Of a stretch of DNA of 64,000 nucleotides, positions 16,577 through 60,609 are shown piece by piece. The first letter of the stretch is position 1. The number at the start of each line of letters is the position of its first letter. The notes under the pieces were generated by a model, which was given only the letters and a program-made list of their open reading frames with translations, had not been told where the DNA came from and did not search any database. Origin of the DNA: Sphingobium sp. AP49 (GTDB lineage: Bacteria; Pseudomonadota; Alphaproteobacteria; Sphingomonadales; Sphingomonadaceae); the NCBI RefSeq assembly GCF_000281715.2, contig NZ_CP124576.1:4347501-4411500 (forward strand). The letters run 5' to 3'. The translations under genes were made by a program, and so were the position numbers.

Positions 16577-16690
16577 CCATAGCGGATACCGGCCCATTCG
16601 CCCCATCGCGCCGTCGGTCCATCCCGTTCAGTACACCCCCGTCAGCGACCGGCCAGAAAGCTTAAGCCAGATTAATGACAATGCCGTCCC

Positions 16691-16715: not shown

Positions 16716-16791
16716 GCATGGCAACCCGACCCGTAATGGTGCGTTTAGCGAGGCTGGCGATCGATCGTCACGGCGTGAATACGGAGTATAT

Positions 16792-45120: not shown

Positions 45121-46387
45121 TGTGAAGGACAAGGACGTCGCCGACGCCCAGGCCGCAAAGAAATATTGGTCGGCCGAAGGCTATACCGAAGGCGGCGTCA
45201 TCCGCGAGGTCGATTATTCCACCCAGTCGGGCGGGCTTGATCCGTCGCTGGCCGGCATCAAGATTGTCGATACCGACACCCATATCACCGAGGCGCCCGA
45301 CCTGTTCACCTCGCGTGCGCCGGCCCAGTACAAGGCCAAGGTGCCTTATGTGAAGCTGGACAATGACGGCGTCGAGCGCTGGTATGTGGGCGACCGCAAT
45401 TTCGGATCGATGGGCGGCAACGTCATCCGCGCCGACAATAACAAGCTGCTCGGCCGCCTCGCCTTCCCCAAGCTGGCGCAGGCCCATCCCGGTGGCCATC
45501 TGATGAAGGAACGGCTGCAGGCGATGGACGATATGGGCATCTATGCCCAGATCGGCTTTCAGAATTCGGGCGTGACCCAGGCCGGTTCGCTGATGTCGCT
45601 GGGCGACCCCGACCTCGCCGTCGCGATCATCCAGATGTATAATGACGCATCGGCCGAATATCAGCAGGTGTCGGGCAACCGCATCTTCAACATGGCCCAT
45701 CTGCCCTTTTGGGACCAGAAGGCGATGGAGACCGAAGCCCGGCGCTGCGTCGACATGGGGCTGCGCGGCTTCGTGCTGCCCGACACGCCCGAGCGCGTCG
45801 GCGTGCCCAGCTTCCTCAATGACTATTGGACGCCGTTTCTGGAAATGTGCGAGGCGGAAGAACTGCCGATCAATTTCCACCTCAATGCGGCGATCGACCC
45901 CAATACGCTCACCTGGGACGGCTTCGGCTTTGAACAGACGCTGTCGGTGGTCGCCACCATGTTCTCGATCGGCAATGCCGCGACGCTGGGCAACTGGATG
46001 GTCTCGGGCCGCCTCGACCGTCATCCCAAGCTCAAGATCGGCCTGATCGAGAGCGGTGCGGGCTGGGTGCCCTTCGCGATCGAGGCGCTGGAGCATCAGT
46101 TCAACGAGATGCTGCCGAGCAAGATGGGCATGCTGCACAAGCGGCCGTGGGAATATTTCCGCGACCATTTCTGGGTCACCTTCTGGTTCGAGAAGGTCGC
46201 GCCCAAGCTGTTGCTGGAAACGATCGGCGTCGACAAGCTGATGTTCGAGACCGATTTCCCGCACCCGACCTCGCTCTATCCGGGCGTGCAGGAACATCTT
46301 AAGGATGTGCTGGGCGGCTATGACTTCGCGGTGAAGAAGAAGGTGCTGCAGGACAACGCCGTGCACCTCTACAAGCTGCCCTTCTGA
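45113..46387 (+). CDS. Amidohydrolase-2-family metal-dependent hydrolase/decarboxylase
   Basis: A 424-residue TIM-barrel enzyme of the PF04909 type (ACMSD, gamma-resorcylate decarboxylase, related hydrolases). The first metal site is DTDTH (Asp53, Asp55, His57), followed by a second His in INFHLN and the late acidic metal ligand in MFETDFPHPTS. Members catalyse non-oxidative decarboxylation or hydrolytic ring and C-C bond opening of aromatic-derived acids. It is co-translated with the IclR regulator and closed by a strong terminator, forming a two-gene unit. Several sphingomonad catabolic clusters carry such proteins near Rieske oxygenases, as here. Reaction not assignable. Confidence 0.9.
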   Translation: MADVKDKDVADAQAAKKYWSAEGYTEGGVIREVDYSTQSGGLDPSLAGIKIVDTDTHITEAPDLFTSRAPAQYKAKVPYVKLDNDGVERWYVGDRNFGSMGGNVIRADNNKLLGRLAFPKLAQAHPGGHLMKERLQAMDDMGIYAQIGFQNSGVTQAGSLMSLGDPDLAVAIIQMYNDASAEYQQVSGNRIFNMAHLPFWDQKAMETEARRCVDMGLRGFVLPDTPERVGVPSFLNDYWTPFLEMCEAEELPINFHLNAAIDPNTLTWDGFGFEQTLSVVATMFSIGNAATLGNWMVSGRLDRHPKLKIGLIESGAGWVPFAIEALEHQFNEMLPSKMGMLHKRPWEYFRDHFWVTFWFEKVAPKLLLETIGVDKLMFETDFPHPTSLYPGVQEHLKDVLGGYDFAVKKKVLQDNAVHLYKLPF

Positions 46388-46552: not shown

Positions 46553-47914
46553 TCAGGCGAGCGGCTTGGGCGCCCCGGTATCCATATAACGCGACAGGTT
46601 ATAATGGAGGCTGGCCACCGCCCGCTCCATATAGGGGTTAGGCTGGGTGCCGCGGAAGCCGACATTCTTCATGCCCTGCTGCACCGCCTGCATGTTGGTG
46701 AAGTCCTGCTGCAGCACCGGGGGCCACTCTTCCGCGCTGGTATATTCCCATTCGGTAGCGGGCGTTTCCGCTTCCGGGAAGAGTTCATAGACCGCCGCCT
46801 CGAAAATGCACTTGTCCGGGTCCGCGCCATAGGGGCGGGCGGAATAGCAGAGCATGTTGTTGACGGCATGGCCGATCTGGAAATTGGGGAAGATCTGCCA
46901 GGCGGTGCCGCTCTTGGCCGTATGGGCGGGTTCGACCACCGGCCAGAAGACCCCGCGCTTCTCATCATCGGCGCGGGCGGTGGCGAGCCAATGTTGCAGC
47001 ACCTGCGGCGCGGGGGTGCCCTCGGGCAGTTCGTCCTTCAATCGCTGGGCGGCGGCGACCAAAGTCATGGTCGTGTTGGTATTGGCATTTTCCCAGGTGA
47101 AAAGCTGCATCTCTGCGGTCGACAGGCGCGGATCCTCGCCCGATCCGATGCGCAGCTTGGCCTGGTTCTCGTCCATATTCTTGGGCGCTTCATAGCCGAT
47201 ATTGGTGTGCAGCCCATGTTTGCGCGCCCAGCCGCGAAATTCGCCGAAGGCGTTGAATTCGGGATGGGTGGTCTGGACATGATAGGTCTCGCTGAACGCC
47301 TCCATCGCGACCTTCCAGTTGCAGTCGAAGATGATCCATTTGCGCCAGCGATAGCGCATATTCTGGAGGCCGAAGGGATCGAGCATGTCGGGCACCACGC
47401 CCAGATAATCGGCGAGCGGGCCGCAATCGGGATCGAGATTGATCCAGGCCCAACCGCCCCAACTATCGACGCTGACCTTGCCGAGCGCGGTGCGCTGCGC
47501 CGTCAGCTTGCCCTGCCAGTCGTCGGCATGGTTGGCGAAGGTGCATTGCCCCTGGCGGTCGAAGGTCCAGCCATGGAAGCCGCAGATGATCGACTTGCGG
47601 TTGCCGCGCGCGTTGCGCTGGCCCGCCGGCGTGTCGATCAGCCGGCGGCCGCGATGCGGGCAGACATTGTGATAGGCGCTGAGCTCATCCGGCCCGGTGC
47701 GCATGATGATGACCGAATCTTCGAGAATGTCATAGGTGACGAAATCGCCGACATTGGGGATATCCTCCAGTCGGGCCGCCTGCAGCCAGACCTTGCGCCA
47801 CAGCCGATCCTGCTCGGCGCGGGCATAGTCCTTGGACACATAGGCTTCGACCGGGACGATGACCGGTTCGATAAGGTCATTACCGGGCGCCACGATGCTG
47901 CTGATCTCGTTCAT
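46553..47914 (-). CDS. Rieske non-heme iron oxygenase, large subunit (1)
   Basis: A 453-residue aromatic-ring-hydroxylating-type alpha subunit. The Rieske cluster ligands are Cys85/His87 (NVCPHRGR) and Cys111/His114 (CGFHGW). The mononuclear iron site is AMEAFSETYHVQTTH with His212 and His217. The C-terminal catalytic domain is longer than in ketosteroid 9-alpha-hydroxylase, closer to phthalate- and toluate-type enzymes and CntA-like proteins. It hydroxylates an organic substrate with O2 and needs an external ferredoxin/reductase. Last gene of the leftward operon, 75 bp after the enoyl-CoA hydratase. No beta subunit is nearby, suggesting an alpha3 enzyme. Confidence 0.92.
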   Translation of the reverse strand: MNEISSIVAPGNDLIEPVIVPVEAYVSKDYARAEQDRLWRKVWLQAARLEDIPNVGDFVTYDILEDSVIIMRTGPDELSAYHNVCPHRGRRLIDTPAGQRNARGNRKSIICGFHGWTFDRQGQCTFANHADDWQGKLTAQRTALGKVSVDSWGGWAWINLDPDCGPLADYLGVVPDMLDPFGLQNMRYRWRKWIIFDCNWKVAMEAFSETYHVQTTHPEFNAFGEFRGWARKHGLHTNIGYEAPKNMDENQAKLRIGSGEDPRLSTAEMQLFTWENANTNTTMTLVAAAQRLKDELPEGTPAPQVLQHWLATARADDEKRGVFWPVVEPAHTAKSGTAWQIFPNFQIGHAVNNMLCYSARPYGADPDKCIFEAAVYELFPEAETPATEWEYTSAEEWPPVLQQDFTNMQAVQQGMKNVGFRGTQPNPYMERAVASLHYNLSRYMDTGAPKPLA

Positions 47915-47989
47915 GGCCTATTCCTTCTCCATTCTACCCTTTTGCCATGCCCGCGTCGCCCGGGCTTGACGAATTAAGACAGGATCGGG

Positions 47990-48769
47990 TCAGCGCCCGG
48001 TCCATTGCGGCTTGCGTTTCTCGGCAAAGGCGCGCGGTCCTTCCTGCGCATCCTCGCTATGATAGGTATATTCCGAAGCCGCGCGGGCGGCCTGCAGCGC
48101 GGCGGCGCGACCCATCTCGGTCGCCAGCATCACCGTGTCGCGCCCGGCCTTCACCGACAGGGGCGCGCCCTCCAAAATCTCCGCCGCCAGATCGAGCGCC
48201 GTCTGCATCAGCGCCTCCGGCTCGGCCAGGCGATTGACCAGGCCGATCTCATAAGCGCGCTGGGCGGTGATCGGTTTGCCGGTGAGGATGATCTCCATCA
48301 TGATCCGCTGCGGGATCATGTGAATGAGCGGCGCGGCCCAGGGCGAACTCCGCCCGACCTTCACTTCGGTAATGGCGAAGCGCGCGGCCGTGCTGGCGAC
48401 GCACAGGTCGCAGGCCTGGGCGATCATCCAGCCGCCGGCAAAGGCGACGCCGTTGACTGCCGCGATCGTCGGCTTGCTGAGTTCGATACTGTCATAGGGC
48501 AGCGGGAACATGGCGCGCGGCGGCACGGTCATGCCGGTATCGACCATTTCCTTGAGGTCACCGCCCGCGCAAAAGGCCTTGTCGCCCGCACCGGTCAGGA
48601 TGGCGACGCGCAGCGCGGGATCATGCTCGAACCGGTCCCAGGCGGCGCGCAGCCCCTCGCGCACGTCGCGGCCCAAGGCATTGCGCTGGTCGGGGCGGTT
48701 GATGGTGAGGATGGCGATGCCGTCGGCCCGCGCCTCAAACAGGACTGCGTCGGTTGAAGCGTCGGGCAT
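47990..48769 (-). CDS. Enoyl-CoA hydratase/isomerase family protein
   Basis: A 259-residue crotonase. Oxyanion-hole residues lie in KAFCAGGDLKEM (~62-73) and AAVNGVAFAGGWMIAQACDL (~101-120). The hydratase Glu positions are not obvious: ITEVKVGRSSPWAA carries one Glu near the right place. It acts on a CoA thioester made by the acyl-CoA dehydrogenase of the same operon. The ATG at 48769 overlaps the stop of the CoA-hydrolase gene, so translation is coupled. The frame is open further upstream but overlaps a real gene, so I chose MPDASTDAV. Hydratase is likeliest; isomerase, dehalogenase or C-C hydrolase variants of this fold cannot be excluded. Confidence 0.9.
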   Translation of the reverse strand: MPDASTDAVLFEARADGIAILTINRPDQRNALGRDVREGLRAAWDRFEHDPALRVAILTGAGDKAFCAGGDLKEMVDTGMTVPPRAMFPLPYDSIELSKPTIAAVNGVAFAGGWMIAQACDLCVASTAARFAITEVKVGRSSPWAAPLIHMIPQRIMMEIILTGKPITAQRAYEIGLVNRLAEPEALMQTALDLAAEILEGAPLSVKAGRDTVMLATEMGRAAALQAARAASEYTYHSEDAQEGPRAFAEKRKPQWTGR

Positions 48770-50016
48770 CAATACCCCCTCTGCTGGATGATATGGGCCG
48801 CCCGCTCCAGTTCCTCGCGGAAGGCGGGGTCGGCGATGGCGATCAGGCGGCGGGTGCGTTCGGCGAGCGTCTGCCCCTTGAGTTCGGCCGCGCCATATTC
48901 GGTGACGATGATGTCGACATCGCTGCGCGCGGTGGTGACCGGGCCGGACAGGCTGGGCACGATCTTGCTGAGGCTGCCGCCCTTGGCCGAGGCGGAGAGC
49001 GCAATGATCGAGCAACCGCCGGGCGAGCGGGCACCGGCACGGACGAAATCGACCTGGCCGCCGGTGCCGCCCAGATAGGCCGCGCCCGACTGTTCGGCAT
49101 TGACCTGACCGGTCAGGTCCACCTCCAGCGCGCTGTTGATCGTGACGAGGCGCGAAAGCCGCCCGAGGACTGCGGCGTCATGGGTGTAGCTGGTCGCGCA
49201 CATGCGGATGGCCGGATTATTATGCGCCCAGTCATAGAGGCGCCGGGTGCCGATCAGCGCGCCATTGATCGAAACGCCAGTGTCGATTTCCTTGCGCGCA
49301 TTGGTCAGCACGCCGGCCTGCGCCAGTTCGACCAGCCCATCGCCCAGCATGCCCGAATGGACGCCCAGATCCTTGCGATCACCCAGCAGCCGCAGGATCG
49401 CGTCGGGCACCGCGCCGACCCCGGTCTGGATCACCGATCCGTCACCGATATAGGCGGCGCAATGGCGCGCAATCGCCTGGTCAGTCTCGCTGATCTTCGC
49501 GGGCGCCACCTCGACCGGCGGGCGCGACACGGGAATGGCGACGTCGATGGCGGATGCCGGGATCAGTTCGCCCGGCACATAGGGCACGGCTTCGTTGATC
49601 TCCGCGATCACCACCCGCGCCTTGTCCACGGCGGCGCGGACATAGTCGCCGATCAGGCCGCAGCTATGATTGCCATCGGCATCGGCAGGGCTGAGCTGGA
49701 TCATCGCCACGTCGCAGCCGATGATGCCGGCCGTGATCATCGGCGCGACCTGGCTGACATGGACGGGGATGACCTGCAGCTTGCCAGCCTTGGTCATCGA
49801 CCGCAGCGCGCCGATCGCACCCATGGAGGAGAGGCGGAAACTGTCGGCGCTTTCGGGAGTGAAGAGCCCTGAGAAACTGGTGGCGATGAAGGCGGACAGA
49901 TCGCCGATCCCGGCGCCCTGTTCGATCAGCGCACTGACCAGGCTGACCGGCTCGCCGCAGGCCTGGCCAAAGACGATGCGGTCGCCGCGCCGTAGATAGG
50001 ACGTGAGGTCGATCAC
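48769..50016 (-). CDS. Acetyl-CoA hydrolase/transferase (family I CoA-transferase)
   Basis: A 415-residue protein of the acetyl-CoA hydrolase/4-hydroxybutyrate CoA-transferase family: early GDRIVFGQACGEPVSLVSAL, GVGAVPDAILRLL, LGVHSGMLGDGLVELAQAG (parts of the core), ALEVDLTGQVNAEQ and the late VDIIVTEYGAAELKG. The catalytic Glu of such transferases is probably in the SALEVDLTGQVNAEQ region. The start is GTG at 50016, overlapping the CitE-like stop as GTGA (50013-50016). It would move CoA from acetyl- or acyl-CoA to a free acid, or hydrolyse the thioester, recycling CoA after the lyase step. Confidence 0.88.
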   Translation of the reverse strand: MIDLTSYLRRGDRIVFGQACGEPVSLVSALIEQGAGIGDLSAFIATSFSGLFTPESADSFRLSSMGAIGALRSMTKAGKLQVIPVHVSQVAPMITAGIIGCDVAMIQLSPADADGNHSCGLIGDYVRAAVDKARVVIAEINEAVPYVPGELIPASAIDVAIPVSRPPVEVAPAKISETDQAIARHCAAYIGDGSVIQTGVGAVPDAILRLLGDRKDLGVHSGMLGDGLVELAQAGVLTNARKEIDTGVSINGALIGTRRLYDWAHNNPAIRMCATSYTHDAAVLGRLSRLVTINSALEVDLTGQVNAEQSGAAYLGGTGGQVDFVRAGARSPGGCSIIALSASAKGGSLSKIVPSLSGPVTTARSDVDIIVTEYGAAELKGQTLAERTRRLIAIADPAFREELERAAHIIQQRGY

Positions 50017-50894
50017 AGCTTCCCGACCTGGCGCAGCAACTGCTCGGCTCGGCTGAGATAGGGCCGATCGAGCATCCCGCCCTTGTAGCCGATCGCGCCG
50101 ACGCCGGGATTGGCGGCGAAGATGTCGACGATCGCCTGGGCTTCGGCGATTTCTTCCGCGGTCGGAGTGAAGGCAGCGTTGATGACATCGACCTGCGCCG
50201 GATGGATCGCCAGCATGCCGCGATAGCCGTCGCGCCGCACCTTCTCGGCCCGCGCCTTCAGCCCGTCGAGATCGCGGAAATCGCCCTGGATCGTCTCGAT
50301 CGCGGTGACGCCGGCGGTCGCGGCCCCCAACAAGCACATCGACCGCGCCAGTTCATAAGTGAAGCCATAGCTGCCGTCGGCATTGCGGTTGGAACTGGCG
50401 CCGATCGAGTCGGCCAGATCCTCCGCGCCCCAGGTCAACGCCACCACGCGCGGCGCGCCCTTGTAATCGCCGGTGTGGAACATCGCCTCGGCCGTTTCGG
50501 TGACCAGCACGATCAGCGGGGTTGATCCGCGTTCGATGCCATGGGCAGCCTCGAAGGCGGTCAGATAATGGTCGAGCAGTTCGACATCCTGCCGGCCATA
50601 GACTTTGGGCAGCATGATACCGCCCGGCCGCGCCGGCATGATCGCGACGAGATCGTCGAGCGTATAGGGGCCGTCGAGCGGATTGACCCGGACCCAGAGT
50701 CGTTCGCGGCCTTCGCTGCGGGCGGCGAGAAAGTCATGCACCATCTGGCGGGCGAGCGGCTTGTTCTCGGTCGCGACAGCATCCTCCAGATCGAACAGCG
50801 CGATATCGGCGGCGCTGTCCGCCGCCTTGGCCATCTTCTTCTCGCTGTCGCCCGGCGCGAACAGCCAGGAGCGCATCTTGATCGGCAGCGTCAT
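50013..50894 (-). CDS. HpcH/HpaI aldolase / citrate lyase beta-like (CitE) protein
   Basis: A 293-residue TIM-barrel lyase beginning MTLPIKMRSWLFAPGDSEKKM, which is the CitE/malyl-CoA lyase N-terminus. DLEDAVATENK (~41-51) holds metal-binding acidic residues; LWVRVNPLDGPYT, LPKVYG, and VALTWGAEDLADSIGA carry the later Glu-Asp metal pair. Such enzymes cleave or form C-C bonds in malyl-CoA, methylmalyl-CoA or citryl-CoA analogues, or act as thioesterases. ATG at 50894 follows GAGGCGAAAG; a TTG at 50909 is possible. It sits 12 bp after the acyl-CoA dehydrogenase gene and is coupled to the CoA-transferase, suggesting a CoA-dependent retro-aldol step. Confidence 0.9.
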   Translation of the reverse strand: MTLPIKMRSWLFAPGDSEKKMAKAADSAADIALFDLEDAVATENKPLARQMVHDFLAARSEGRERLWVRVNPLDGPYTLDDLVAIMPARPGGIMLPKVYGRQDVELLDHYLTAFEAAHGIERGSTPLIVLVTETAEAMFHTGDYKGAPRVVALTWGAEDLADSIGASSNRNADGSYGFTYELARSMCLLGAATAGVTAIETIQGDFRDLDGLKARAEKVRRDGYRGMLAIHPAQVDVINAAFTPTAEEIAEAQAIVDIFAANPGVGAIGYKGGMLDRPYLSRAEQLLRQVGKL

Positions 50895-50905
50895 CGTCTT
50901 TCGCC

Positions 50906-52072
50906 TCAATAGGATTTGGGCAATTCCAGCACCTTTTCGGCGATGAAATTGAGGATCATGTGGGGGCTGACCGGGGCGGTGCGCGGGATCAGCACTTCGC
51001 GCAGCAGCCGTTCGACGTGATATTCCTGGGCATAGCCCATGCCCCCCAGGGTCAGCATCGCGGTATGGCAGGCCTCGAACGCGGATTCGGCGGCGAGATA
51101 TTTGCCGCTGTTCGCCTCCACGCCGCAGTCATCGCCCTTGTCGAACAAAGTGGCGGCCTTCATCACCATCAGGTTCGCGGCCTCCAGCTGCATCCAGCAT
51201 TTGGCGAGCGGATGCTGAATGCCCTGATTCATGCCGATCGGCCGGTCGAAGACGATGCGTTCGCGGGCATAGCGGGCGGCGCGCTGGATCGCGTTGCGGC
51301 CGATGCCGATCGCTTCGGCGCCGAGCAGGATGCGCTCCGGGTTCAGCCCCTTGAGGATGATCCTGAAGCCCTGCCCCTCCTCGCCGATCCGATCCTCCTC
51401 GGGGATGAAGAGGTCGTTGATGAACAGCATGTTCGAGCCGACCGCGTGGCGGCCCATCTTGGGGATCAATTGATGCTCGATCTTCTCGCGATCGAGCCTG
51501 GTGAAGAAGAGAGACAGGCCCTGCGTCTTGTTCTTCACCTGATCGAGCGGCGTGGTGCGGGCAAGCAGCATCATCCGGTCGGCGACATGGGCGTTGGTGA
51601 TCCAGATTTTCTCGCCATTGACGCGATAGCCGCCCTCGACCCGCTCGGCCCGGGTCTTGAGCTTGGTGGTGTCGAGCCCGGTATTGGGTTCGGTCACGGC
51701 AAAGCACATCTTCTCCGCGCCCGAGATGATCGGCGGGATCATCCGCTGCTGCTGTTCTTCCGTCCCGAACAGCGCGATCGGCTCCAGGCTGAAGACCGGG
51801 CCGTGGATGCTGGATGCGGCAGTCATGCCGCCGCCGGCCTCCGCCACCGCCTGCACCATGATCGCCGCCTCGGTAATGCCCAGGCCCGCACCGCCCGCCG
51901 CTTCGGGCATGGCGATGCCCAGCCAGCCGGCGTCGGCCATCGCCCGGTGGAAATCGAACGGGAAGACGGCGTCCTTGTCGCGTTCAAGCCAATAGTCATC
52001 GGGGAACTGGGCGCAGAGCTGGAACACGGCATCGCGGATGTTCCGCTGGTCTTCGGTAAGGGCAAAATCCAC
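50906..52072 (-). CDS. Acyl-CoA dehydrogenase
   Basis: A 388-residue ACAD. FAD/substrate regions: CFAVTEPNTGLDTTKLKTRAERV (in parts), GEKIWITNAHVADRMMLLAR, GMNQGIQHPLAKCWMQLEAA and the C-terminal LGGMGYAQEYHVERLLREVLIPR (in parts), where related enzymes have the catalytic Glu. It oxidises an acyl-CoA to the 2-enoyl-CoA, handing electrons to ETF. No ATG fits; GTG at 52072 gives the family N-terminus VDFALTEDQRNI, with GGA upstream. It is the first gene of the five-gene leftward operon and is divergent from the CoA-transferase at 52238. A full-length stand-alone ACAD, unlike the split pairs near 58-63 kb. Confidence 0.9.
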   Translation of the reverse strand: MDFALTEDQRNIRDAVFQLCAQFPDDYWLERDKDAVFPFDFHRAMADAGWLGIAMPEAAGGAGLGITEAAIMVQAVAEAGGGMTAASSIHGPVFSLEPIALFGTEEQQQRMIPPIISGAEKMCFAVTEPNTGLDTTKLKTRAERVEGGYRVNGEKIWITNAHVADRMMLLARTTPLDQVKNKTQGLSLFFTRLDREKIEHQLIPKMGRHAVGSNMLFINDLFIPEEDRIGEEGQGFRIILKGLNPERILLGAEAIGIGRNAIQRAARYARERIVFDRPIGMNQGIQHPLAKCWMQLEAANLMVMKAATLFDKGDDCGVEANSGKYLAAESAFEACHTAMLTLGGMGYAQEYHVERLLREVLIPRTAPVSPHMILNFIAEKVLELPKSY

Positions 52073-52148
52073 GGGTTTTCCGGCCTTGGCTTGGGGAGGG
52101 TCCAACGGATTTCGGGGTATCAGCGGGCATCCGGCCCGACAATTGAGC

Positions 52149-52170
52149 CGCCCCACATATCGGTGGGGCG
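52149..52170. promoter_or_regulatory. Inverted repeat shared by the two divergent catabolic operons
   Basis: CGCCCCAC (52149-52156), ATATCG, GTGGGGCG (52163-52170) is a perfect 8-bp dyad in the 165-bp gap between the leftward acyl-CoA dehydrogenase and rightward CoA-transferase. It lies ~70-80 bp from either start, suiting a regulator that controls both directions. A second, shorter dyad TTGGC/GCCAA is at 52201-52213. Confidence 0.55.
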
Positions 52171-52237
52171 AAGGGGTTGCGCGTGGATTTCGCGCCGTCC
52201 TTGGCCTAGCCAAAAAGGGATGGAACAGGAGAGCAAG

Positions 52238-53413
52238 ATGAACGCGACGCAGGCGCATGGGGAGGCGCGCAAGGGGCCTTTGGCCGGGATCCGCGTGGTG
52301 GACCTGACCGCCATGGTGTTCGGCCCCTATGCGACCCAGATCATGGCCGACATGGGCGCCGACGTCATCAAGATCGAGCCGCCGGCGGGCGACAATACCC
52401 GCTATATCAACGCCGGACCGACGCCGGAGCTGGGCGGCGTTTTCACCAACGTCAATCGCGGCAAGCGCAGCGTGGTGCTGGACCTGCGGCAGGAGGAGGA
52501 CAAGGCGGCGCTGCGCGCACTGATCGCGACGGCCGATGTCTTCATCCATTCGATGCGGGGCAAGGCGATCGCAAAGCTGGGTTTCGACTATGCCGCAGTG
52601 AAGGCGATCAGGCCCGACATCGTCTACACCAATTGCTATGGCTATAGCCGGCGCGGGCCGGATGGCGACAAGCCCGCCTATGACGACACGATCCAGGCCG
52701 AATGCGGCATTCCCCATCTGCAGCAGTTGATGACCGGCAAGCCCGATTTCATGGCGACGATCATCGCCGACAAGGTGGCGGGCCTCACCGGCCTCTATGC
52801 GACGATGATGGCGCTGTTCCACCGCGAGCGCACCGGCGAGGGGCAGGAGGTGGAAGTCTCCATGTTCGAGACCATGGCCTCCTTCATGCTGACCGAACAT
52901 GCCAGCGGCATGTTGTTCGAGCCGCCGCTGGGTCCGGCCAATTATCACCGCGTCGTCGCCCGCAACCGCAAGCCCTATGCGACCAAGGACGGCCATGTCG
53001 CCGCGCTGGTCTATAATGACAAGCATTGGAACGCCTTCGTCGCGGCGGTGAACCCGCCCTGGGCAACCGAGGAGTTCGACACGCTGACCAAGCGCGCGAA
53101 GCAGATCGACCGGGTCTATGGCCTGCTCGGCGAGACCTTTGCCGAGCGGACGACGCAGGAATGGCTCGACCTGCTGGAGGCACTGCATATCCCCGCCGCG
53201 CCGCTGCGCACCACCGACGAGCTGTTCGACAATGCGCATCTCAACGCGATCGGCTTTTTCGAGACGGTGGAGACGCCGCAGGGGCCGGTACGCTTCCCCG
53301 GCGTGCCGACATGGTTCTCGCAAACGCCGGGCCGGGTTGCAGGTGGCGCGCCGGAACTGGGCGCACATAGCCGGGAAGTGCTGGACGAACTGGGCGTGGT
53401 CGCCCATCGGTAG
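52238..53413 (+). CDS. CaiB/BaiF family III CoA-transferase (2)
   Basis: A 391-residue CoA-transferase with GIRVVDLTAMVFGPYATQIMADMGADVIKIEPP (in parts, ~17-49), NRGKRSVVLDL (73-83), PAYDDTIQAECG with the catalytic Asp (149 or 150) and HRERTGEGQEVEVSMFETMA (part). AGGAG at 52227-52231 supports ATG 52238. It begins the rightward operon: CoA-transferase, Rieske oxygenase, EthD protein, luciferase-like enzyme, exported propeller protein. It likely makes the CoA thioester of the substrate or an intermediate, or detaches CoA before oxygenation. It differs clearly from the family member at 39297. Confidence 0.92.
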   Translation: MNATQAHGEARKGPLAGIRVVDLTAMVFGPYATQIMADMGADVIKIEPPAGDNTRYINAGPTPELGGVFTNVNRGKRSVVLDLRQEEDKAALRALIATADVFIHSMRGKAIAKLGFDYAAVKAIRPDIVYTNCYGYSRRGPDGDKPAYDDTIQAECGIPHLQQLMTGKPDFMATIIADKVAGLTGLYATMMALFHRERTGEGQEVEVSMFETMASFMLTEHASGMLFEPPLGPANYHRVVARNRKPYATKDGHVAALVYNDKHWNAFVAAVNPPWATEEFDTLTKRAKQIDRVYGLLGETFAERTTQEWLDLLEALHIPAAPLRTTDELFDNAHLNAIGFFETVETPQGPVRFPGVPTWFSQTPGRVAGGAPELGAHSREVLDELGVVAHR

Positions 53414-53465
53414 GGCGATGGGTTGGGGCGGCGCCTTGGCGCTCCCCGGCCCGCCCTATACCACT

Positions 53466-53489
53466 TCACCCAAGCAAGACATTGGGTGA
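53466..53489 (+). promoter_or_regulatory. Inverted repeat overlapping the ribosome site of the second Rieske gene
   Basis: TCACCCAA (53466-53473) pairs perfectly with TTGGGTGA (53482-53489) across eight bases. The right arm merges into GGTGAGG, the ribosome-binding site for the ATG at 53498. Folded RNA could hide the ribosome site; as DNA it could be an internal operator. Confidence 0.55.
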
Positions 53490-53497
53490 GGCATGTG

Positions 53498-54898
53498 ATG
53501 GTTGAGGCTGCTGAAATGACGCGCGCGGCGTTCCCGCTGGAAATCAGCGATCCCGAGCGCATTCCTACCGCGCGCTATTATGACGAGGCCTTCTACCAGC
53601 GCGAATGCGAAGAATTATGGCCTCATGTCTGGCAGATGGCCTGCCGTGTCGAACAGGTGCCCGAAGTCGGCGATTGGATCGAATATAGCAATCTGGGCAA
53701 GTCCGTCATCATCGTGCGGACCAAGGACGGTATCCGCGCCTATCATAATGCCTGCCGCCATCGCGGCGTGCCGCTGACCGAGGGCAGCCATGGCAATTGC
53801 AAGGGCAAGGGGTTCATCTGCCCCTTCCATGGCTGGCGCTGGAATATCGAGGGCAAGAATACCTTCGTCTATGGCCGGCACATGTTCTCCGAGCATCAGC
53901 TGGACGAGCAGGACCTGGCCCTGCGCCCTTGCCGTACCGAGATCGAGATGGGCTGCGTCTTCATCAATTTCGATGACGAGGCGCCGTCGCTGCGCGAGCA
54001 GCTTGGCCCGCTGGCGATCGGGCTGGAGGCCTATAATGCCGACAAGATGCGCGCCGAATGGTGTTTCGGCACGGTCCTGCCGGCCAATTGGAAGATCGCG
54101 ATGGAAGCCTTCATGGAAGGCTATCATGTCATGCGCACCCATCCGCAGCTGCAGCAGAAGGTGCCGATCCTCTATAACATGATGTACGGCATGGACACCG
54201 GCGGGATCGGCGTGCCGATCAATCCCAACCGGTCGATGAAGGAAAATATCGAGGACCAGGTCGAGCATATGCAGTTGCTGAGCGACGGCATGGCCGGCAT
54301 GTGCCACGCCAAGGATGTCGCCGTCGCCCGCACCCTGATCGACGTCGAACTGCCCGAGGATCCGGGCCAGGCGATCATGCAATGGTTCGGCATGGTCAAT
54401 CATTTCGTGACCCAGGCCGGGCAGGCACGCGGCGAGCCGACGCCCGACCTCAACAAGATCGCGGTCGAAACCCCGGTCAAGTCGGTCGAGTTCATCTTCC
54501 CCAATTATTTCCTGCTGCCCTTCCTTTCCAGCATGGCCGCTTATCGCATCCGCCCGCTCGGCCCGGAAAGCTGCATGTTCGAGCTGTGGTCGCTGACCCA
54601 TTTTGCCGAGGGGCAGGAGCCGCCGGTGGTGATGGAGCCGGTGATGCTGCCCTATGACAGCGACCAGTTCCCGATGATCCCGCGCCAGGATTATTCCAAC
54701 ATCCCGATCCAGCAGAAGGGCCTTCATGCCGAAGGGTTCGACTTCATGCGCCTGTCCAAGGATATCGAAGGGCTGATCAGCAATTACCAGCGGATCATCG
54801 ACGGCTATCTGAACGGCGTGTCGCCCGACAAGCTGGTTGCAGGCACGCAGAAGCTGGCCGGCAATTTCGACGGACCGATCGTCGACCTGGGCTTCTGA
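53498..54898 (+). CDS. Rieske non-heme iron oxygenase, large subunit (2)
   Basis: A 466-residue alpha-type subunit from MVEAAEMTRAAFPLEI. Rieske ligands are Cys86/His88 (NACRHRG) and Cys108/His111 (CPFHGW); the iron site AMEAFMEGYHVMRTH gives His208 and His213. ATG 53498 has GGTGAGG at suitable distance; the frame open back to 53423 has no ribosome site. Unlike Rieske protein 1, the first Rieske loop reads CRH, and the catalytic domains differ, so they are distant paralogues acting on different substrates or positions. It needs ferredoxin and reductase; only a ferredoxin (60295) is in the window. It is followed by an EthD-domain gene after 20 bp. Confidence 0.92.
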   Translation: MVEAAEMTRAAFPLEISDPERIPTARYYDEAFYQRECEELWPHVWQMACRVEQVPEVGDWIEYSNLGKSVIIVRTKDGIRAYHNACRHRGVPLTEGSHGNCKGKGFICPFHGWRWNIEGKNTFVYGRHMFSEHQLDEQDLALRPCRTEIEMGCVFINFDDEAPSLREQLGPLAIGLEAYNADKMRAEWCFGTVLPANWKIAMEAFMEGYHVMRTHPQLQQKVPILYNMMYGMDTGGIGVPINPNRSMKENIEDQVEHMQLLSDGMAGMCHAKDVAVARTLIDVELPEDPGQAIMQWFGMVNHFVTQAGQARGEPTPDLNKIAVETPVKSVEFIFPNYFLLPFLSSMAAYRIRPLGPESCMFELWSLTHFAEGQEPPVVMEPVMLPYDSDQFPMIPRQDYSNIPIQQKGLHAEGFDFMRLSKDIEGLISNYQRIIDGYLNGVSPDKLVAGTQKLAGNFDGPIVDLGF

Positions 54899-54918
54899 AC
54901 GCATAGGGAGGCGCGGCG

Positions 54919-55269
54919 ATGCACAAGCTGGTCATCCTGCTCAAACGTCGCGCCGACCTGACACCGGAACAGTTCCGGGCCTATTATGAAGGGCAGCATG
55001 CCCCGCTATGCCTGCGCTACATGATCGGCGTCAGCCATTATGCGCGCCGCTATATCGGCCCGGGGCCGGGTATGCCGGACCTGCCCTTCGACGTCATCAC
55101 CGAGGTGTGGATCAAGGATCGCGCGGCGTTCGACATGGTGCTGGACGCGATGGGCAAGGGCATTCTGCCCGACGATGTGATCGCCGACGAGGCACAATTG
55201 TTCGACCGCGCCCAGTCGCGCTTCTGCGCCATGCTGGCCGAACATGAGACGCATATTCCGGCGACATGA
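54919..55269 (+). CDS. EthD-domain protein
   Basis: A 116-residue dimeric alpha/beta-barrel protein: MHKLVILLKRRADLTPEQFRAYYEGQHAPL (in parts) is the EthD signature, with the WIKDRAAFDMVLDAMG helix and an EAQLFDRAQ segment at the C-terminus, where EthD proteins usually have a LFxD pattern. EthD-like proteins are small partners or cofactor-free oxygenases/isomerases in ether and polyketide metabolism; their chemistry is often unknown. It lies 20 bp after the Rieske gene and 13 bp before the luciferase-like gene, so co-translation is near certain. It could process the unstable product of the oxygenase. Confidence 0.88.
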   Translation: MHKLVILLKRRADLTPEQFRAYYEGQHAPLCLRYMIGVSHYARRYIGPGPGMPDLPFDVITEVWIKDRAAFDMVLDAMGKGILPDDVIADEAQLFDRAQSRFCAMLAEHETHIPAT

Positions 55270-55282
55270 AGGGACGACAGGC

Positions 55283-56203
55283 ATGAAATTCGCGTTCGGC
55301 ATGCCCCGGCTGATCGAGCTGAAGGCGACGATGCAGCCCTGGGAATTGTCGGTCACGGGGGCGGACCAGACGCGGCTGGCCAAGCTGGCCGATGACCTCG
55401 GCTATGACATGATCAGCGTGCCGGAACATTTCCTGATCCCCCGCGCCCATGTCGATCTGTCGGGGCCGCATCATTTCCATGCCTATGCGGCGATGGGCTA
55501 TTATGCCGGCGCGACCAGTCGTATCCGCATCAACAGCTCGATCGCGATCCTGCCGCTGCAGCATCCCGCGATCACCGCCAAGGCGCTGTCGACGATCGAC
55601 TGGTTGTCGGGCGGCCGGGCGATGGTGACCTTTGGCGCGGGCTGGCTGGAGGAGGAGTTCGACCTGCTCGGCGCCCCCTTCCACCAGCGCGGGCGGATGT
55701 GCGACGAATATTTGGCTGCGATCGTCGAGCTGTGGACCAGCGACGATCCACATTATGAGGGCGAGTTCGTGTCCTTCCGCGACGTCGCCTTTGCGCCGCG
55801 CCCGGTGCAGCAGCCGCATCTGCCGATCTGGATGGGCGGGGAAGCCGACGCGGTGTTGAAGCGCGCCGCGCGCCATGCCAGCGGCTGGTGGCCCTATCTG
55901 ACCAAGCCCGAGGATATCCCGGCGAAGATCGACTTCATCAAGTCGCAGTCCGGCTATGACGGCCGCCCGTTCGACGTGATGTACGGCTTTGCCACCAGCC
56001 GGGTCGGCGAAGGCCATGCCGTGGTCGACGATCCGCGCGCCCGGCCGGGCATGACCGCGCCGGAGATCATCGATCGGCTCGGCTGGTTCCAGACGCTGGG
56101 CGTGACCATGAGTTCGGTGCCGATCCCGGCGGTGCGCAGCATCAGCGAATATGAGGATTATGCCCGCTGGGTGATCGAGGAGATCAAACCCAGGCTGGCC
56201 TGA
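55283..56203 (+). CDS. Luciferase-like (LLM class) flavin-dependent oxidoreductase (2)
   Basis: A 306-residue TIM-barrel LLM protein, starting MKFAFGMPRLIEL. Family features: ISVPEHFLIP, INSSIAILPLQHPAITAKALSTIDWLSGGR (in parts), GAGWLEEEFDLLG and the PHLPIWMGGEADAVLKRAARHASGWWP block (in parts), which matches the F420/FMN-type LLM subfamily seen in actinobacteria and sphingomonads. It would oxidise or oxygenate an organic substrate, e.g. Baeyer-Villiger ring insertion. ATG 55283 is preceded by GGGACGACAGG. Fourth gene of the rightward operon. No flavin reductase gene is nearby. Not closely related to the LLM at 9291. Confidence 0.9.
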   Translation: MKFAFGMPRLIELKATMQPWELSVTGADQTRLAKLADDLGYDMISVPEHFLIPRAHVDLSGPHHFHAYAAMGYYAGATSRIRINSSIAILPLQHPAITAKALSTIDWLSGGRAMVTFGAGWLEEEFDLLGAPFHQRGRMCDEYLAAIVELWTSDDPHYEGEFVSFRDVAFAPRPVQQPHLPIWMGGEADAVLKRAARHASGWWPYLTKPEDIPAKIDFIKSQSGYDGRPFDVMYGFATSRVGEGHAVVDDPRARPGMTAPEIIDRLGWFQTLGVTMSSVPIPAVRSISEYEDYARWVIEEIKPRLA

Positions 56204-56225
56204 CAAGAACAGATTGAGGAGAAGG

Positions 56226-58088
56226 ATGATGGCAGGCAGGCTTATGGGCGGAGCCACACTGATCCCGGCGTCGCTGCTGCTGGTCGTGGGACATCAGGCC
56301 GTTGCTACCACTACCCCACCCAGCCACGAGCGGGTGGTGATCGATGCCCTGCCGCTGCCGCCGACCGCGCCATCCGATACGCCTGGCGCCTGTACCACCG
56401 CAATCAATCCGCGCGCTACCGGCTGCATGTCCGCCCATTATTTCGCGCTGCAGGCGGGCAGCTTCCTGCCGGACGGGCGTCATGTCGTGGCGCGGGTGAC
56501 GTTTGCCGGGGCATCCGATCCTGCCAGTCCCTATCGCGGCGAGCAGTTGATCCTGGTCAAGACCGATGGCAGTCGTTTCGCCAATGGCGATGCTTGGAAA
56601 TGCCTCAGCTGCGGCATGACCGATCCGATGCCGCGAGACATGAGCTATCCCCAAAGCTTTCATGACGGTCGCCGCGTTCTGGCTGGCAGCACCATATTCG
56701 ACTGCGGCACACTCGCGCTGACCGATGATCGCTGTACGCCGACCGGGATCCGCGCCTATCCGGTCCACTGGCAGGTCAGCGCCGACGACAGCGGCCGACC
56801 CGGCATGATGCGGGAGTTGCGCCTCCATCCCGACAATGACCATATCGGCTTCAATGCGGTGGCGATCAACGACGGGCGCATGGACCAGTTCGGCTATACC
56901 GCCCGGCTGCACTTCAATGCCCCTAAGGCACGTTATGATCTGGAACAGGTCAACCTGCTGTTCCGGCCGGGAATCGAGAATCGCACGTTGCGGCCCGTGC
57001 CGGGCAAGCCGGGACAATTGGAGATCAACAAGGCGGGGATCGAGGTCGGCGAATTTCGCGGCTTCACCGCCGACGGCCGCGAAGCCGTCTATGTCGGTTA
57101 TCCATGGGAATCGTCGAACATCGACATTTTTGCGGTTGGCCTGGCCGACGGCAGGGTGCGCCGCCTGACCAGCCACCCCGAATATGTCGACCCGGTCGAT
57201 TTTTCGCCCGACGGCCAATGGATGGCGATAGAGGATACGCGCGGCACAGATCGGCAGATGTTCCTGGCGGCGATGCGCGGCATTCCGCCGATCACCGACC
57301 TGCTCAGTTCCAGCGCCGTATCCTCCACTCGCAACAATATGGATCGACGTTTCTTCAACCTGGTGCTGCTCGACGCGCAGGGCGATCGTGGCGCCTATAT
57401 GGGCCAGATATTGACCGATCAGCCCGGCGTACCGGGATCGGCGGGCGATCCCAACTGGAACGCGATGGCCGACCCACGCTGGTCGCCCGACAGCCGGGCC
57501 ATCGTCTATTGGCAGGCGCTGGCAACCACGCCGGCCTGCGGCGGCGCCAATCCGCTGCCCTGTCCGACCTCGACCGAGCCGGGCGGTCGCCATGCTCGGC
57601 TGATGATCGCCCGCTTGCCCGATCGCAAGGCAAGCGCCGCGGTAAAGCCGGTTGCCCTGCCCGACCGGATCGGCTGGGCGACGGCCTATGTTCCGGGCAT
57701 GCCTACCCCCAAGAGAGCGTTACTGCCGGCGGGCGACTATGTGCTGCATGGGCTGAAGTCCGGAACGGCACAGGTGCGCGTCGTCCAGCGCGCCGACGGC
57801 AAGGCGATCGATAGCATCTCTGCCCGTTACCAGAATTATTCCGACGATGGACGCAGCCAGATCAACGGCGGCGAGTCGGTCAGCGAAAAACGCGCCAATC
57901 CGCAGACGACACAAATATTGTGGAAATCCGACCTGCGCCAGAGCGGCGCAGTATCCGGCAGCAAGACATCAAGTCCGGATGGTTTCGCCCTATCGATCGA
58001 CGTGATGGTGAACAAGCTGGAAGCAGCCGGCACACTCAGCACGATGATCGACGGCAAGACCTATAAACAACCTGCAAACGGTACCTGA
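56226..58088 (+). CDS. Exported PD40/TolB-like beta-propeller protein of unknown function
   Basis: A 620-residue precursor. The signal peptide is MMAGRLMGGATLIPASLLL then VVGHQAVA; the ribosome site AGGAG at 56217-56221 favours ATG 56226 or 56229. The body has WD40-like/PD40 repeats: FSPDGQWMAIEDTRGTD, PRWSPDSRAIVYW and related blade strands, plus CLSCGM and other cysteine pairs that may form periplasmic disulfides. No peptidase triad or TolB-specific N-domain is recognised. It begins 22 bp after the LLM gene, ending the rightward operon, so it may bind or process the substrate in the periplasm. Function unassigned. Confidence 0.8.
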   Translation: MMAGRLMGGATLIPASLLLVVGHQAVATTTPPSHERVVIDALPLPPTAPSDTPGACTTAINPRATGCMSAHYFALQAGSFLPDGRHVVARVTFAGASDPASPYRGEQLILVKTDGSRFANGDAWKCLSCGMTDPMPRDMSYPQSFHDGRRVLAGSTIFDCGTLALTDDRCTPTGIRAYPVHWQVSADDSGRPGMMRELRLHPDNDHIGFNAVAINDGRMDQFGYTARLHFNAPKARYDLEQVNLLFRPGIENRTLRPVPGKPGQLEINKAGIEVGEFRGFTADGREAVYVGYPWESSNIDIFAVGLADGRVRRLTSHPEYVDPVDFSPDGQWMAIEDTRGTDRQMFLAAMRGIPPITDLLSSSAVSSTRNNMDRRFFNLVLLDAQGDRGAYMGQILTDQPGVPGSAGDPNWNAMADPRWSPDSRAIVYWQALATTPACGGANPLPCPTSTEPGGRHARLMIARLPDRKASAAVKPVALPDRIGWATAYVPGMPTPKRALLPAGDYVLHGLKSGTAQVRVVQRADGKAIDSISARYQNYSDDGRSQINGGESVSEKRANPQTTQILWKSDLRQSGAVSGSKTSSPDGFALSIDVMVNKLEAAGTLSTMIDGKTYKQPANGT

Positions 58089-58091
58089 GGA

Positions 58092-59006
58092 TCAGCCCCA
58101 GAGCGCATCGGCGGCGGCGAGCGCCTGCCCGCCACGTCCGCCCAGATCGCCGATCAGCGCCTTGAGCCGATAGGTCCACAGGTGCAGCGGATGCTCCAGC
58201 GTCACCCCCATGGCGCCGAGGAACTGGTGGAAATCATAGACGCTCGTCCGCGCCGATTCCTGAGCATAGAGCGCGGCCAGCGCCGCGTCGCCCGCGTCCA
58301 GTGTGCCGGCTGCTTTCATCGCCAGCCAGTACAGGCCGTTCGCGCGCACCTGTGCCTCGGCCAGGCGGTGGCGCAGCGCCTGGAAGGTGGCGAGGGGCCG
58401 GCCGAACTGCTGGCGGTCGGTGACATAGGTGGCCGTGCTGTCCAGCGCGGCGGCGAGCAGGCCCGCCGCCTCTGCCGCCAGCGCCACGCGCCAGCGGGTG
58501 CGGATATCGCCGGCCGACACGTCATGATCGGTCAGGTCGTCGGGCTGAGCGATCAGGCTGCCCATCGGATAGGCATAAAGGGCTTCGGGTTCGGTCCGGA
58601 CATGCTCGGGACCTGCGACGAAGCTGCGCACCCGGTCCGGTCCGACCAGCAGCACCGTCGCGCCCGGCGCAAGGAAACGGATCGGACGATGCGCCTTCCC
58701 TTCCTCCCCCAGGCAAAGCGGACGCGGCGTCGCATCACCCAGCAATGGGCGGATGAGAGCGCTGGCCGCAGCCTCCACCGCCTGCGGCAGGCGGGCCAGC
58801 CGTTCGACCACCAAGGCGGCGCTGATCGCGCCCAGATCGGGATCGAAGCCGATGTCGAGGAAGCCGCCCTCCGCCAGGTCGCGGTCGAGCGCGTCACTGG
58901 TAAGGGCAAAGCCCGCCTCATGCAGCGTCGCGCCGGCATAGGGCCGGGTCAGCGTGTCGATCGCGTCGAGGATCGCGATCTGGTCGTCGGTCAGGGACAG
59001 GTCCAT
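58092..59006 (-). CDS. Acyl-CoA dehydrogenase, small/partner subunit (pair A)
   Basis: A 304-residue ACAD-fold protein with a normal C-terminal helical domain (WRVALAAEAAGLLAAALDSTATYVTDRQQFGRPLATFQALRHRLAEA, in parts) but a degenerate N-terminal/middle domain and no recognisable catalytic Glu. This fits the alpha2beta2 heteromeric acyl-CoA dehydrogenases known from steroid side-chain degradation, where two unlike half-active proteins form one enzyme. Its start overlaps the stop of the large-subunit gene (59006-59008 region, ATGA), so the pair is co-translated. The long tail-to-tail neighbour at 58088 is the propeller gene. Substrate probably a bulky acyl-CoA. Confidence 0.87.
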   Translation of the reverse strand: MDLSLTDDQIAILDAIDTLTRPYAGATLHEAGFALTSDALDRDLAEGGFLDIGFDPDLGAISAALVVERLARLPQAVEAAASALIRPLLGDATPRPLCLGEEGKAHRPIRFLAPGATVLLVGPDRVRSFVAGPEHVRTEPEALYAYPMGSLIAQPDDLTDHDVSAGDIRTRWRVALAAEAAGLLAAALDSTATYVTDRQQFGRPLATFQALRHRLAEAQVRANGLYWLAMKAAGTLDAGDAALAALYAQESARTSVYDFHQFLGAMGVTLEHPLHLWTYRLKALIGDLGGRGGQALAAADALWG

Positions 59007-60151: not shown

Positions 60152-60159
60152 CAGTCCAC

Positions 60160-60183
60160 GCATCCCCTGCCGAACAGGGATGC
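60160..60183. promoter_or_regulatory. Inverted repeat between acyl-CoA dehydrogenase pair A and the ferredoxin gene
   Basis: GCATCCCCTG (60160-60169) and CAGGGATGC (60175-60183) form a dyad with one extra C and a five-base centre, directly upstream of the leftward start at 60151 in the 143-bp divergent gap. It may be an operator or a leader hairpin. Confidence 0.45.
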
Positions 60184-60294
60184 GATACTTAAGAGCGACG
60201 CGGCGCGACAGGGCAGCGGGCAAGAGAACGCCCCGGTGATGGGCTTGGGCCGGCCCTTGCCGCGACCGGCGCGCTTGGGGCAGCCTTGCACGGC

Positions 60295-60609
60295 ATGAGC
60301 GACCAAGATTTTATCGCCACTGTACCGCTGGACGCGGTGCCACCGGGCAAGACCAAGGCCGTGACCATCGCTGGTCGCGACCTGTTATTGTGCAACAGCG
60401 ACGGGCAAATCCACGCCATTGCCGCGCTGTGCTCGCACGCCGACGAGCCGCTCGCCTGCGGCCGCATCCGCCTGGGCTGGATCGCCTGCCCGGCCCATGG
60501 CGCCCGTTTCGACCTGGAAACCGGCGAGCCGCTGACCGGTCCCGCAAGCGAACCGATCGCCACCTATCCCGTTCGCATCATTGACGGGATGATCGAGGTC
60601 GCCGCCTGA
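60295..60609 (+). CDS. Rieske-type [2Fe-2S] ferredoxin
   Basis: A 104-residue stand-alone Rieske protein: Cys46/His48 (CSHAD) and Cys65/His68 (CPAHG) ligate the cluster, as in BphF/NdoA-type ferredoxins. It carries electrons from a reductase to a Rieske oxygenase such as those at 46553 or 53498; the alternative is a NirD-like subunit. ATG 60295 (MSDQDF) was chosen over the one at 60286. No reductase is adjacent. It lies divergent to acyl-CoA dehydrogenase pair A and 92 bp before pair B. Its position between two dehydrogenase pairs suggests that oxygenation and side-chain oxidation belong to one pathway. Confidence 0.9.
   Translation: MSDQDFIATVPLDAVPPGKTKAVTIAGRDLLLCNSDGQIHAIAALCSHADEPLACGRIRLGWIACPAHGARFDLETGEPLTGPASEPIATYPVRIIDGMIEVAA

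Follow-up and report, generated by a model that had tools for sequence, protein, structure and literature searches.

Gene content of the two divergent arms

The window analysed here is a 64-kb stretch of the single-contig 4.5-Mb genome of Sphingobium sp. AP49 (genome positions 4347501-4411500), and the system in question is a pair of divergent gene arms that together hold ten genes, all of them present with the protein families named in the original prediction. The left arm, on the minus strand, reads outward from the centre as an acyl-CoA dehydrogenase with a GTG start (ACAD, 50906-52072; family scans), a CitE-like C-C lyase (CitE, 50013-50894; best NCBIfam model RipC_Ccl (NF038242), best PDB match citrate lyase beta-like), a class I CoA-transferase-like protein with glycine in place of the catalytic glutamate (ACoAH, 48769-50016; family scan and alignments), a crotonase-fold hydratase/isomerase with one catalytic glutamate (ECH, 47990-48769; family scan and residue alignment) and a Rieske oxygenase alpha subunit (RO1, 46553-47914). 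The right arm, on the plus strand, consists of a family III CoA-transferase (CaiB, 52238-53413; CoA_transf_3 at 375.9 bits, and 203 against a cut-off of 700 for the succinyl-CoA:mesaconate CoA-transferase model), a second Rieske oxygenase alpha subunit (RO2, 53495-54898), an EthD-domain protein (54919-55269; family scan), a luciferase-like oxidoreductase (LLM, 55283-56203; TIGR03619 at 202 bits, above the cut-off) and an exported propeller-repeat protein (56226-58088). Both arms are as compact as had been described: spacing within them runs from -22 to +81 bp (81 bp for CaiB-RO2, 75 bp for RO1-ECH and at most 22 bp at the remaining junctions), with a divergent gap of 165 bp between the arms. 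From the translations, ACoAH most likely starts at the GTG at 50016 and ECH at 48769, each start overlapping the stop of the gene before it (CitE and ACoAH, respectively). The ten genes are thus real and tightly spaced, and their limits differ from those of the unit that is conserved in relatives.

The two Rieske oxygenases are GbcA/CntA-like by family scans and motifs. Both carry the Rieske C-x-H...C-x2-H motif and a 2-His iron motif with glutamate at the bridging position, which we take to be a mark of the CntA type; the iron site reads N-W-K...E-x-F-x-E-x-Y-H...T-H, with a glutamate three residues before the first iron histidine. They resemble the glycine betaine and carnitine monooxygenases GbcA and CntA in that GbcA is the best NCBIfam model for both and a carnitine oxygenase (CntA) structure ranks first for RO2 and second for RO1 in the PDB, and differ from them in score (114 for RO1 and 101 for RO2 against a cut-off of 670), which lies so far below the cut-off as to argue for a different function. 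The lack of a reductase or beta subunit in the arms had been presented as a puzzle, and this part of the prediction falls away because a Rieske ferredoxin (60286-60609, plus strand; family scan, C-x-H ... C-x2-H motif) lies nearby and both oxygenases fit the GbcA/CntA type, which to our knowledge works without a beta subunit; no search aimed at a reductase was made. Annotation calls the pair aromatic ring-hydroxylating dioxygenases, which would place them in an aryl-acid pathway. RO1 has phthalate 3,4-dioxygenase as its best PDB match, and protocatechuate 4,5-dioxygenase genes lie about 11 kb beyond RO1 in RAC03, whose copy of the cluster is described below, but both oxygenases score best with GbcA, RO2 is closest to carnitine oxygenase and a Pfam scan of 40 window proteins showed no ring-cleavage dioxygenase family; an aryl-acid role is considered very improbable. 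A paralogue of RO2 (37% identical, genome positions 4059626-4060924) carries an in-frame TAG.

The conserved unit and its flanking blocks

Synteny of the ten genes was searched in loci obtained by scanning genome contigs with RO2 (the best 80 of 173, each reaching up to 10 kb to the left and to the right of RO2; gene search at E 1e-10), among which the closest named relatives belong to Sphingobium. Thirteen of the 80 loci (L002-L008, L010, L011, L013, L014, L015 and L055, the locus end cutting RO1 in L011 and L013) show the gene order RO1-ECH-ACoAH-CitE-ACAD<>CaiB in full and have RO2 at most 6 kb away, and they span several genera and the plasmid NZ_CP016453.1; RO1 directly follows the CoA module (ECH-ACoAH-CitE-ACAD<>CaiB) in 13 of the 80. 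L027 is truncated by a contig end, L069 begins inside CaiB, and most of the remaining loci hold RO2 relatives in different settings. None of the 80 loci, that of S. scionense included, yielded the propeller gene. EthD and LLM are optional members: EthD was not found in L003-L008, L010, L014 and L015, and among the 13 complete loci LLM occurs only in L002, L011 and L013. The proposal that the ten genes form one unit therefore fails, and its synteny search bears out the stretch from RO1 to CaiB together with RO2 but not the full ten-gene order. In S. scionense, where RO1 and RO2 are 98-99% identical to those of the window (RO2 99%), LLM is followed by an ACAD pair; since the propeller gene was not seen in any of the 80 loci, this one included, it may have been inserted only recently between these two in the window.

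To the right of the arms the conserved unit continues with two pairs of ACAD genes and the ferredoxin. Pair b (minus strand) consists of a small subunit (58092-59006), which occurs in each of the 13 complete loci as well as in RAC03, and a large subunit (open reading frame 59006-60223, start probably 60151) with 82-98% identical homologues in 12 of the 13, L011 stopping short of the gene; the L003 copy of the large subunit has pimC_large as its best model. The ferredoxin is found in 9 of the 13 and in RAC03, and was not found in L010, L011, L013 and L055. Pair c (plus strand), present in 11 of the 13, comprises a large subunit (60702-61910; best PDB match 4x28, which we take to be ChsE4-ChsE5, then Tcur3483) and a small one (61907-62887; best NCBIfam model IpdE2, 116 against a cut-off of 450). 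The likeness to the steroid alpha2beta2 ACADs (ChsE4-ChsE5, Tcur3483) thus lies in these best structural matches and in the pairing of large and small genes, from which the pairs are recognised here; the difference is that the IpdE2 and PimC/D cut-offs are not reached. A rightward continuation of the island is seen in L087 (2583-10511), with a DUF2889 protein, a thiolase-like protein, a P450, a short-chain dehydrogenase/reductase (SDR), a 736-aa fused double ACAD and a crotonase (the SDR and the crotonase identified by eye), and several other cluster genomes have matches in similar long frames near the core.

On the left, a second block at 3-16.6 kb of the window belongs to the same unit. At its outer end lies a carboxylesterase (3032-4483, minus; COesterase at 298.9 bits), followed on the plus strand by a SnoaL/NTF2-like protein (5262-5777; family scan), TauD-type dioxygenase 1 (5884-6705; TauD at 191 bits), an SDR dehydrogenase (6754-7506; family scan), a TetR-type regulator (7616-8299), TauD-type dioxygenase 2 (8372-9211; family scan, reading frame from 8306) and another luciferase-like oxidoreductase (9255-10298; family scan), which is 68% identical to the one near the RO1 homologue of Rhodococcus sp. 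USK13. The minus strand then carries the beta (10443-11417) and alpha (11426-12421) subunits of a thiamine diphosphate (ThDP) 2-oxoacid dehydrogenase-type E1, 84% and 89% identical to their L010 counterparts (best NCBIfam models pyruvate dehydrogenase E1 beta and E1 alpha), and a KstD-like FAD dehydrogenase (13956-15638; best PDB match 3-oxosteroid 1-dehydrogenase 7p18, E 5.3e-76). A second crotonase (15776-16576, plus; ECH_1), whose family adjoins the cluster in L010 and L027, closes the block. An amidohydrolase beside RO1 (45113-46387, plus; Amidohydro_2) is a probable member. Between the two parts, inside the split of about 30 kb, lies a bacteriophytochrome-like HWE histidine kinase with a receiver domain (16675-19344).

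The assignment of this block comes from relatives. The TauD, SDR, TetR (in nine other loci), E1 alpha and beta, KstD-like and second-crotonase families at 5.9-16.6 kb of the window adjoin the core in other loci, and on the RAC03 plasmid pBSY17_1 (NZ_CP016453.1) left-block genes and core stand in one run. There the carboxylesterase (69% identical to that of the window) holds the same cluster end, followed by homologues of the NTF2-like protein (66%), the SDR (92%), the regulator (69%, annotated TetR/AcrR), TauD 2 (80%) and RO1 (89%), and then the core, CaiB, RO2, ACAD pairs and ferredoxin. L016 and L017 combine RO1, two TauD-family genes, the SDR, RO2 and EthD with an amidohydrolase 82-83% identical to that of the window. 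Additionally, among 298 genomes of the family RO2 (at least 63% identity) occurs in 11 and the KstD-like protein (at least 57%) in 12, with both in 10, and TauD 2 (at least 63%) occurs in 8, all of them RO2 genomes. Fisher tests for the two co-occurrences give 6e-16 and 1e-13 (1e-14 and 3e-12 with this genome excluded), values whose true significance is lower because the identity thresholds were chosen post hoc and shared ancestry was ignored. The natural unit is therefore larger than the ten genes and comprises 3-16.6 kb plus 46.5-63 kb, parts that lie about 30 kb apart here.

A promoter motif shared by the core and the E1 genes

The two arms had been described as running outward from a single palindrome. 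The inverted repeat CGCCCCAC-ATATCG-GTGGGGCG is indeed present at 52149-52170 and is unique in the genome at up to three mismatches, but what is kept from genus to genus is the right half alone; among 17 compared promoters the full palindrome occurs only in the window and, with arms one base shorter, in S. scionense. The palindrome was accordingly rejected as the operator, its left arm not being conserved among these promoters. The conserved right half (52157-52172, plus strand), ATATCGGNNNGGCGAA, is exact in 13 of 16 relative ACAD-CaiB promoters and has one mismatch in L014 and L027; a pattern search also found it before CaiB in L060, L073 and the plasmid loci L089 and L093, and in L113, where the CoA module stands alone. 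The CaiB promoters of L004-L007, L015 and L089 have another element, TCGAACRGCTGTTCA, immediately before the motif; the window promoter lacks this element.

A position weight matrix (PWM) was built from 13 distinct sites, the window and S. scionense excluded, with eight second-order Markov windows as null (range 6.4-16.0). It scores 34.5 at the core site and 20.9 upstream of E1 alpha (12477-12502, minus), above the null maximum of 16.0. A second, weaker copy upstream of E1 alpha (12543-12568, minus; one mismatch to the 16-mer, PWM 14.8) and a weak copy before the carboxylesterase (4549-4574, plus; PWM 15.0) fall inside the null range; RAC03 has a copy (PWM 14.1) at the same carboxylesterase promoter. 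In the nine relatives whose loci have an E1 alpha at least 77% identical, the 250 bp upstream of the gene score 22.1 (L003), 18.7 (L007), 18.7 (L015), 9.9, 7.2, 6.4, 6.0, 5.2 and 4.0, with the motif in identical orientation in all nine. Against 396 random 250-bp stretches of the window (95% point 3.3, 99% point 11.5), the window and all nine relatives exceed the 95% point and 4 of the 10 exceed the 99% point, although these scores are not independent because related promoters share ancestry. Two distant E1 homologues score below zero.

The genome-wide scan, made in this genome (elsewhere fetched loci were scanned), returned 13 matches at up to two mismatches, of which 6 lie inside the window (1.4% of the genome), against 8 in all for a reversed control pattern; the binomial chance of 5 of the 12 other matches falling within 64 kb is about 4e-7, for a pattern chosen after the core site had been seen. 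Since the conserved right half recurs upstream of E1 alpha, it suggests a regulon, for which the TetR-type protein of the left block is a candidate regulator. The cluster is probably co-regulated, and the predicted co-regulation of the arms can likewise be judged probable from the motif common to the core and E1 alpha promoters. Elsewhere in the genome, a third TauD homologue whose frame is interrupted by a stop (2517635-2519538) lies about 1 kb from a two-mismatch motif copy, and there are ACAD matches at 2.56 Mb; this is possibly a second related locus.

The CoA module, the proposed pathway and known systems

The CoA module stands without RO1 or RO2 in L112, L113 and L114 (20 kb fetched), and so appears to be a unit in itself. 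The most distinctive member of the module is ACoAH, whose fold is clear from the sequence (best PDB matches 4-hydroxybutyrate CoA-transferases, E 1.7e-88), and which has glycine where two aligned structures carry the glutamate of the HSEM/HTEM motif, presumably the catalytic residue that forms the acyl-enzyme. Glycine occupies this position in 15 of 15 orthologues (invariant in a 13-sequence alignment) and in 119 of the 120 best database matches listed, the remaining one lacking that stretch; a class-wide sample of 26 homologues divides into 19 with glycine and 7 with glutamate. The second class I CoA-transferase homologue of this genome (4493618-4494868) retains the glutamate and is among the 7. 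Database names for the glutamate-less protein are acetyl-CoA/acyl-CoA hydrolase, acetyl-CoA hydrolase/transferase and, once, 4-hydroxybutyrate CoA transferase. Because the glutamate needed for the acyl-enzyme is missing, the protein is probably a hydrolase, of thioesters or of C-C bonds, and not a transferase. IpdAB acts on C-C bonds as a hydrolase. In ECH the first glutamate position is methionine and the second glutamate is kept, both positions invariant in 13 sequences, a pattern in keeping with an isomerase or an altered hydratase. The left-arm ACAD has 61-62% identical homologues beside the glutamate-less protein in two other families. L142, from another alphaproteobacterial family, has an operon CaiB-ACAD-glutamate-less protein-CaiB-MaoC-CitE-IclR, in which the best NCBIfam model of MaoC is RipB_Ich (134 against a cut-off of 340) and its second Pfam family Mesaconyl-CoA hydratase; L149 has IclR-CaiB-ACAD-glutamate-less protein (IclR and CaiB identified by eye). 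CitE was rejected as a marker of the cluster, 232 of the 298 genomes matching it at E 1e-60.

Taken together, the two arms are read as the central part of a conserved and co-regulated gene cluster for breaking down an alicyclic compound, most likely a terpenoid-like one, a reading to which we give about even chances; it upholds the idea of a single oxidative CoA-thioester pathway, in a larger unit than the ten genes. From the protein families we infer the following sequence of steps. The ring system would be hydroxylated by the TauD dioxygenases and by RO1 and RO2, alpha-only oxygenases that would draw their electrons from the ferredoxin nearby; the SDRs and the KstD-like flavoprotein would oxidise it, the ThDP E1 alpha/beta pair would cleave a 2-oxo acid or acyloin, and the ACAD pairs would shorten the product. 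CaiB may then load CoA onto a branched, alkylsuccinate-like dicarboxylate, as the families, the gene set and the L142 parallel suggest. The left-arm ACAD would form the enoyl-CoA, the crotonase would hydrate or isomerise it, and CitE would cleave the resulting tertiary hydroxyacyl-CoA, releasing acetyl-CoA together with a 2-oxo acid; this order of activation, dehydrogenation, hydration and lyase cleavage is proposed by analogy with methylsuccinate degradation, as given in the available text of PMC12290011. In this way a list of ten genes becomes a defined module for which known chemistry supplies a template, from the activation of an alkylsuccinate through dehydrogenation and hydration to cleavage by a lyase, and in which a promoter motif is shared; a glutamate-less subfamily of the CoA-transferase fold is also marked out. 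If a plant or polycyclic terpenoid is indeed the substrate, the cluster would supply the genes by which sphingomonads in soil and water turn it over.

The terpenoid analogy, one of several in the original prediction, gains support from the KstD-like enzyme, the steroid-type ACAD pair and a PtlE-like neighbour of RO1 outside the sphingomonads. RO1 homologues of 63-64% identity occur in Rhodococcus sp. USK13 and Mycobacterium branderi, next to annotated FAD-dependent oxidoreductase, SDR, TauD, ThDP enzyme, aldehyde dehydrogenase and CoA-transferase genes. In USK13, the neighbourhood scanned for flavoprotein and ThDP families, the flavoprotein is of the flavin-containing monooxygenase type (best match pentalenolactone D synthase PtlE, 675 against a cut-off of 1100) and for the ThDP enzyme the matching models are of the acetolactate synthase type; in M. 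branderi two SDRs are mycofactocin-coupled, above the cut-off. In combination, these neighbourhoods, the steroid-type ACAD pair and the KstD-like enzyme point to polycyclic alicyclic compounds. The likeness to pentalenolactone enzymes extends to both window TauD proteins, for which PtlD is second best, whereas PtlE and PtlD are biosynthetic, the scores lie below the cut-offs and no such monooxygenase is found among the window proteins scanned. Abscisic acid was also considered as a substrate (a retro-aldol step would give dehydrovomifoliol), with no known first-step enzymes for comparison; according to the available text of PMC9599779 these are still to be worked out.

The same evidence bears on a steroid or bile-salt cluster, in which the genes would degrade a side chain or rings by a sphingomonad variant of the 9,10-seco route. 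The KstD-like enzyme is closest to 3-oxosteroid 1-dehydrogenase (560 against a cut-off of 789 with the 3-ketosteroid 1-dehydrogenase model), and pair c to the steroid ACADs 4x28 and Tcur3483; additionally, the Sphingomonadaceae side-chain pathway is described as unresolved in the available text of PMC8399759, and the bsd I cluster of C. tardaugens likewise holds a TetR regulator, an amidohydrolase and an ACAD pair (PMC12882949, available text). On the other hand, bsd I has different CoA genes (SclA ligase, Scd4AB and MaoC) in that same text. A profile search for KshA_C (PF19298) gave no match in this genome; among the 15 genomes bearing the cluster whole or in part, 4 match, 3 of them above 85 bits, and 11 do not, this one included, with completeness stated for one genome. 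The absence of the KshA domain from this genome disfavours steroid or bile-acid degradation by the KshA-based 9,10-seco route. No IpdE2 match rises above its cut-off in the 15 genomes; IpdE2 was set aside as a steroid marker, since it is matched in 9 of 14 control genomes, above the cut-off in none, and is thus uninformative. A steroid or bile-salt cluster is held to be rather improbable.

Several observations weigh against the terpenoid-type cluster. No E1 genes are annotated in 41 kb of RAC03, and in the closest relative, S. scionense, a DNA search of 60 kb beyond RO1 returned the RO1 end and no left block. ECH, ACoAH and CitE are absent from L025, ECH and CitE from L054, and only RO1 and CaiB are retained in L060 and L073; a CitE 74-83% identical occurs in the sphingomonad loci L106-L109, L111 and L115, where this type must play another role because the rest of the module is absent. 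The core promoter of L010 lacks the motif, as do L112 and L114 among the standalone modules; E1-upstream scores are low (4.0-9.9) in six of the nine relatives, and two of the six window matches sit inside genes (6170 and 43764). Finally, the top PDB match of RO1 is an aromatic dioxygenase, and RO1, ECH, ACoAH, CitE, ACAD, CaiB, RO2 and the KstD-like protein stay below the NCBIfam equivalog cut-offs among the matches listed. Nearby amidohydrolase and esterase genes and the patchy distribution would suit a biotransformation without growth, a detoxification or hormone inactivation in which the CoA genes salvage only a side chain, but the single ACAD, the two ACAD pairs, the lyase and the E1 suggest full carbon use, and we grant this very little probability. 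A bolder form of the terpenoid reading, that of an undescribed polycyclic terpenoid-type route in which the ThDP E1 alpha/beta would open the ring at a Rieske-made acyloin or diketone and the end steps would fall to a widespread, unrecognised glutamate-less class I CoA-transferase-fold subfamily of hydrolases, possibly acting on C-C bonds, is unlikely.

As for known systems, no description of the cluster was found in the open-licence literature (titles and abstracts), which agrees with the statement that it matches no pathway that could be named. The bile-salt clusters of Sphingobium sp. Chol11 (PMC8399759) and Caenibius tardaugens (PMC12882949) share with it, in the available texts, the sphingomonad host, ACAD pairs, KstD, Rieske genes, amidohydrolase and TetR, and differ in that this genome has no KshA_C match and that their side-chain clusters hold other CoA genes. 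The CoA part does have a nameable closest relative, contrary to the original prediction, which stands for the whole cluster: the itaconate/methylsuccinate cluster ich-mcd-mmgE-ict-ccl known from Pseudomonas and Cupriavidus (PMC12290011, available text). An ACAD, a CitE-type lyase, an Ict-family fold and a hydratase are grouped in both, with the ACAD adjoining the lyase; here, CoA transfer is probably carried out by CaiB, the Ict-like protein lacks the catalytic glutamate, a crotonase replaces the MaoC hydratase (Ich), and the arm genes include no MmgE/PrpD and have Rieske genes attached. That the locus is simply an itaconate/methylsuccinate utilisation operon, adjoined by Rieske and other genes by chance, would be in keeping with these same families and with the module standing alone in L112-L114; it is improbable given RO1 directly after the module in 13 of the 80 loci, the motif common to the core and E1 alpha promoters, the loss of the glutamate, ten arm genes without MaoC or MmgE/PrpD and a CitE far under the cut-off of the (S)-citramalyl-CoA lyase RipC/Ccl (161.5 against 375). 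What is new with respect to these systems is that Rieske oxygenases of the GbcA/CntA type are combined with a CoA module resembling that of itaconate/methylsuccinate degradation.

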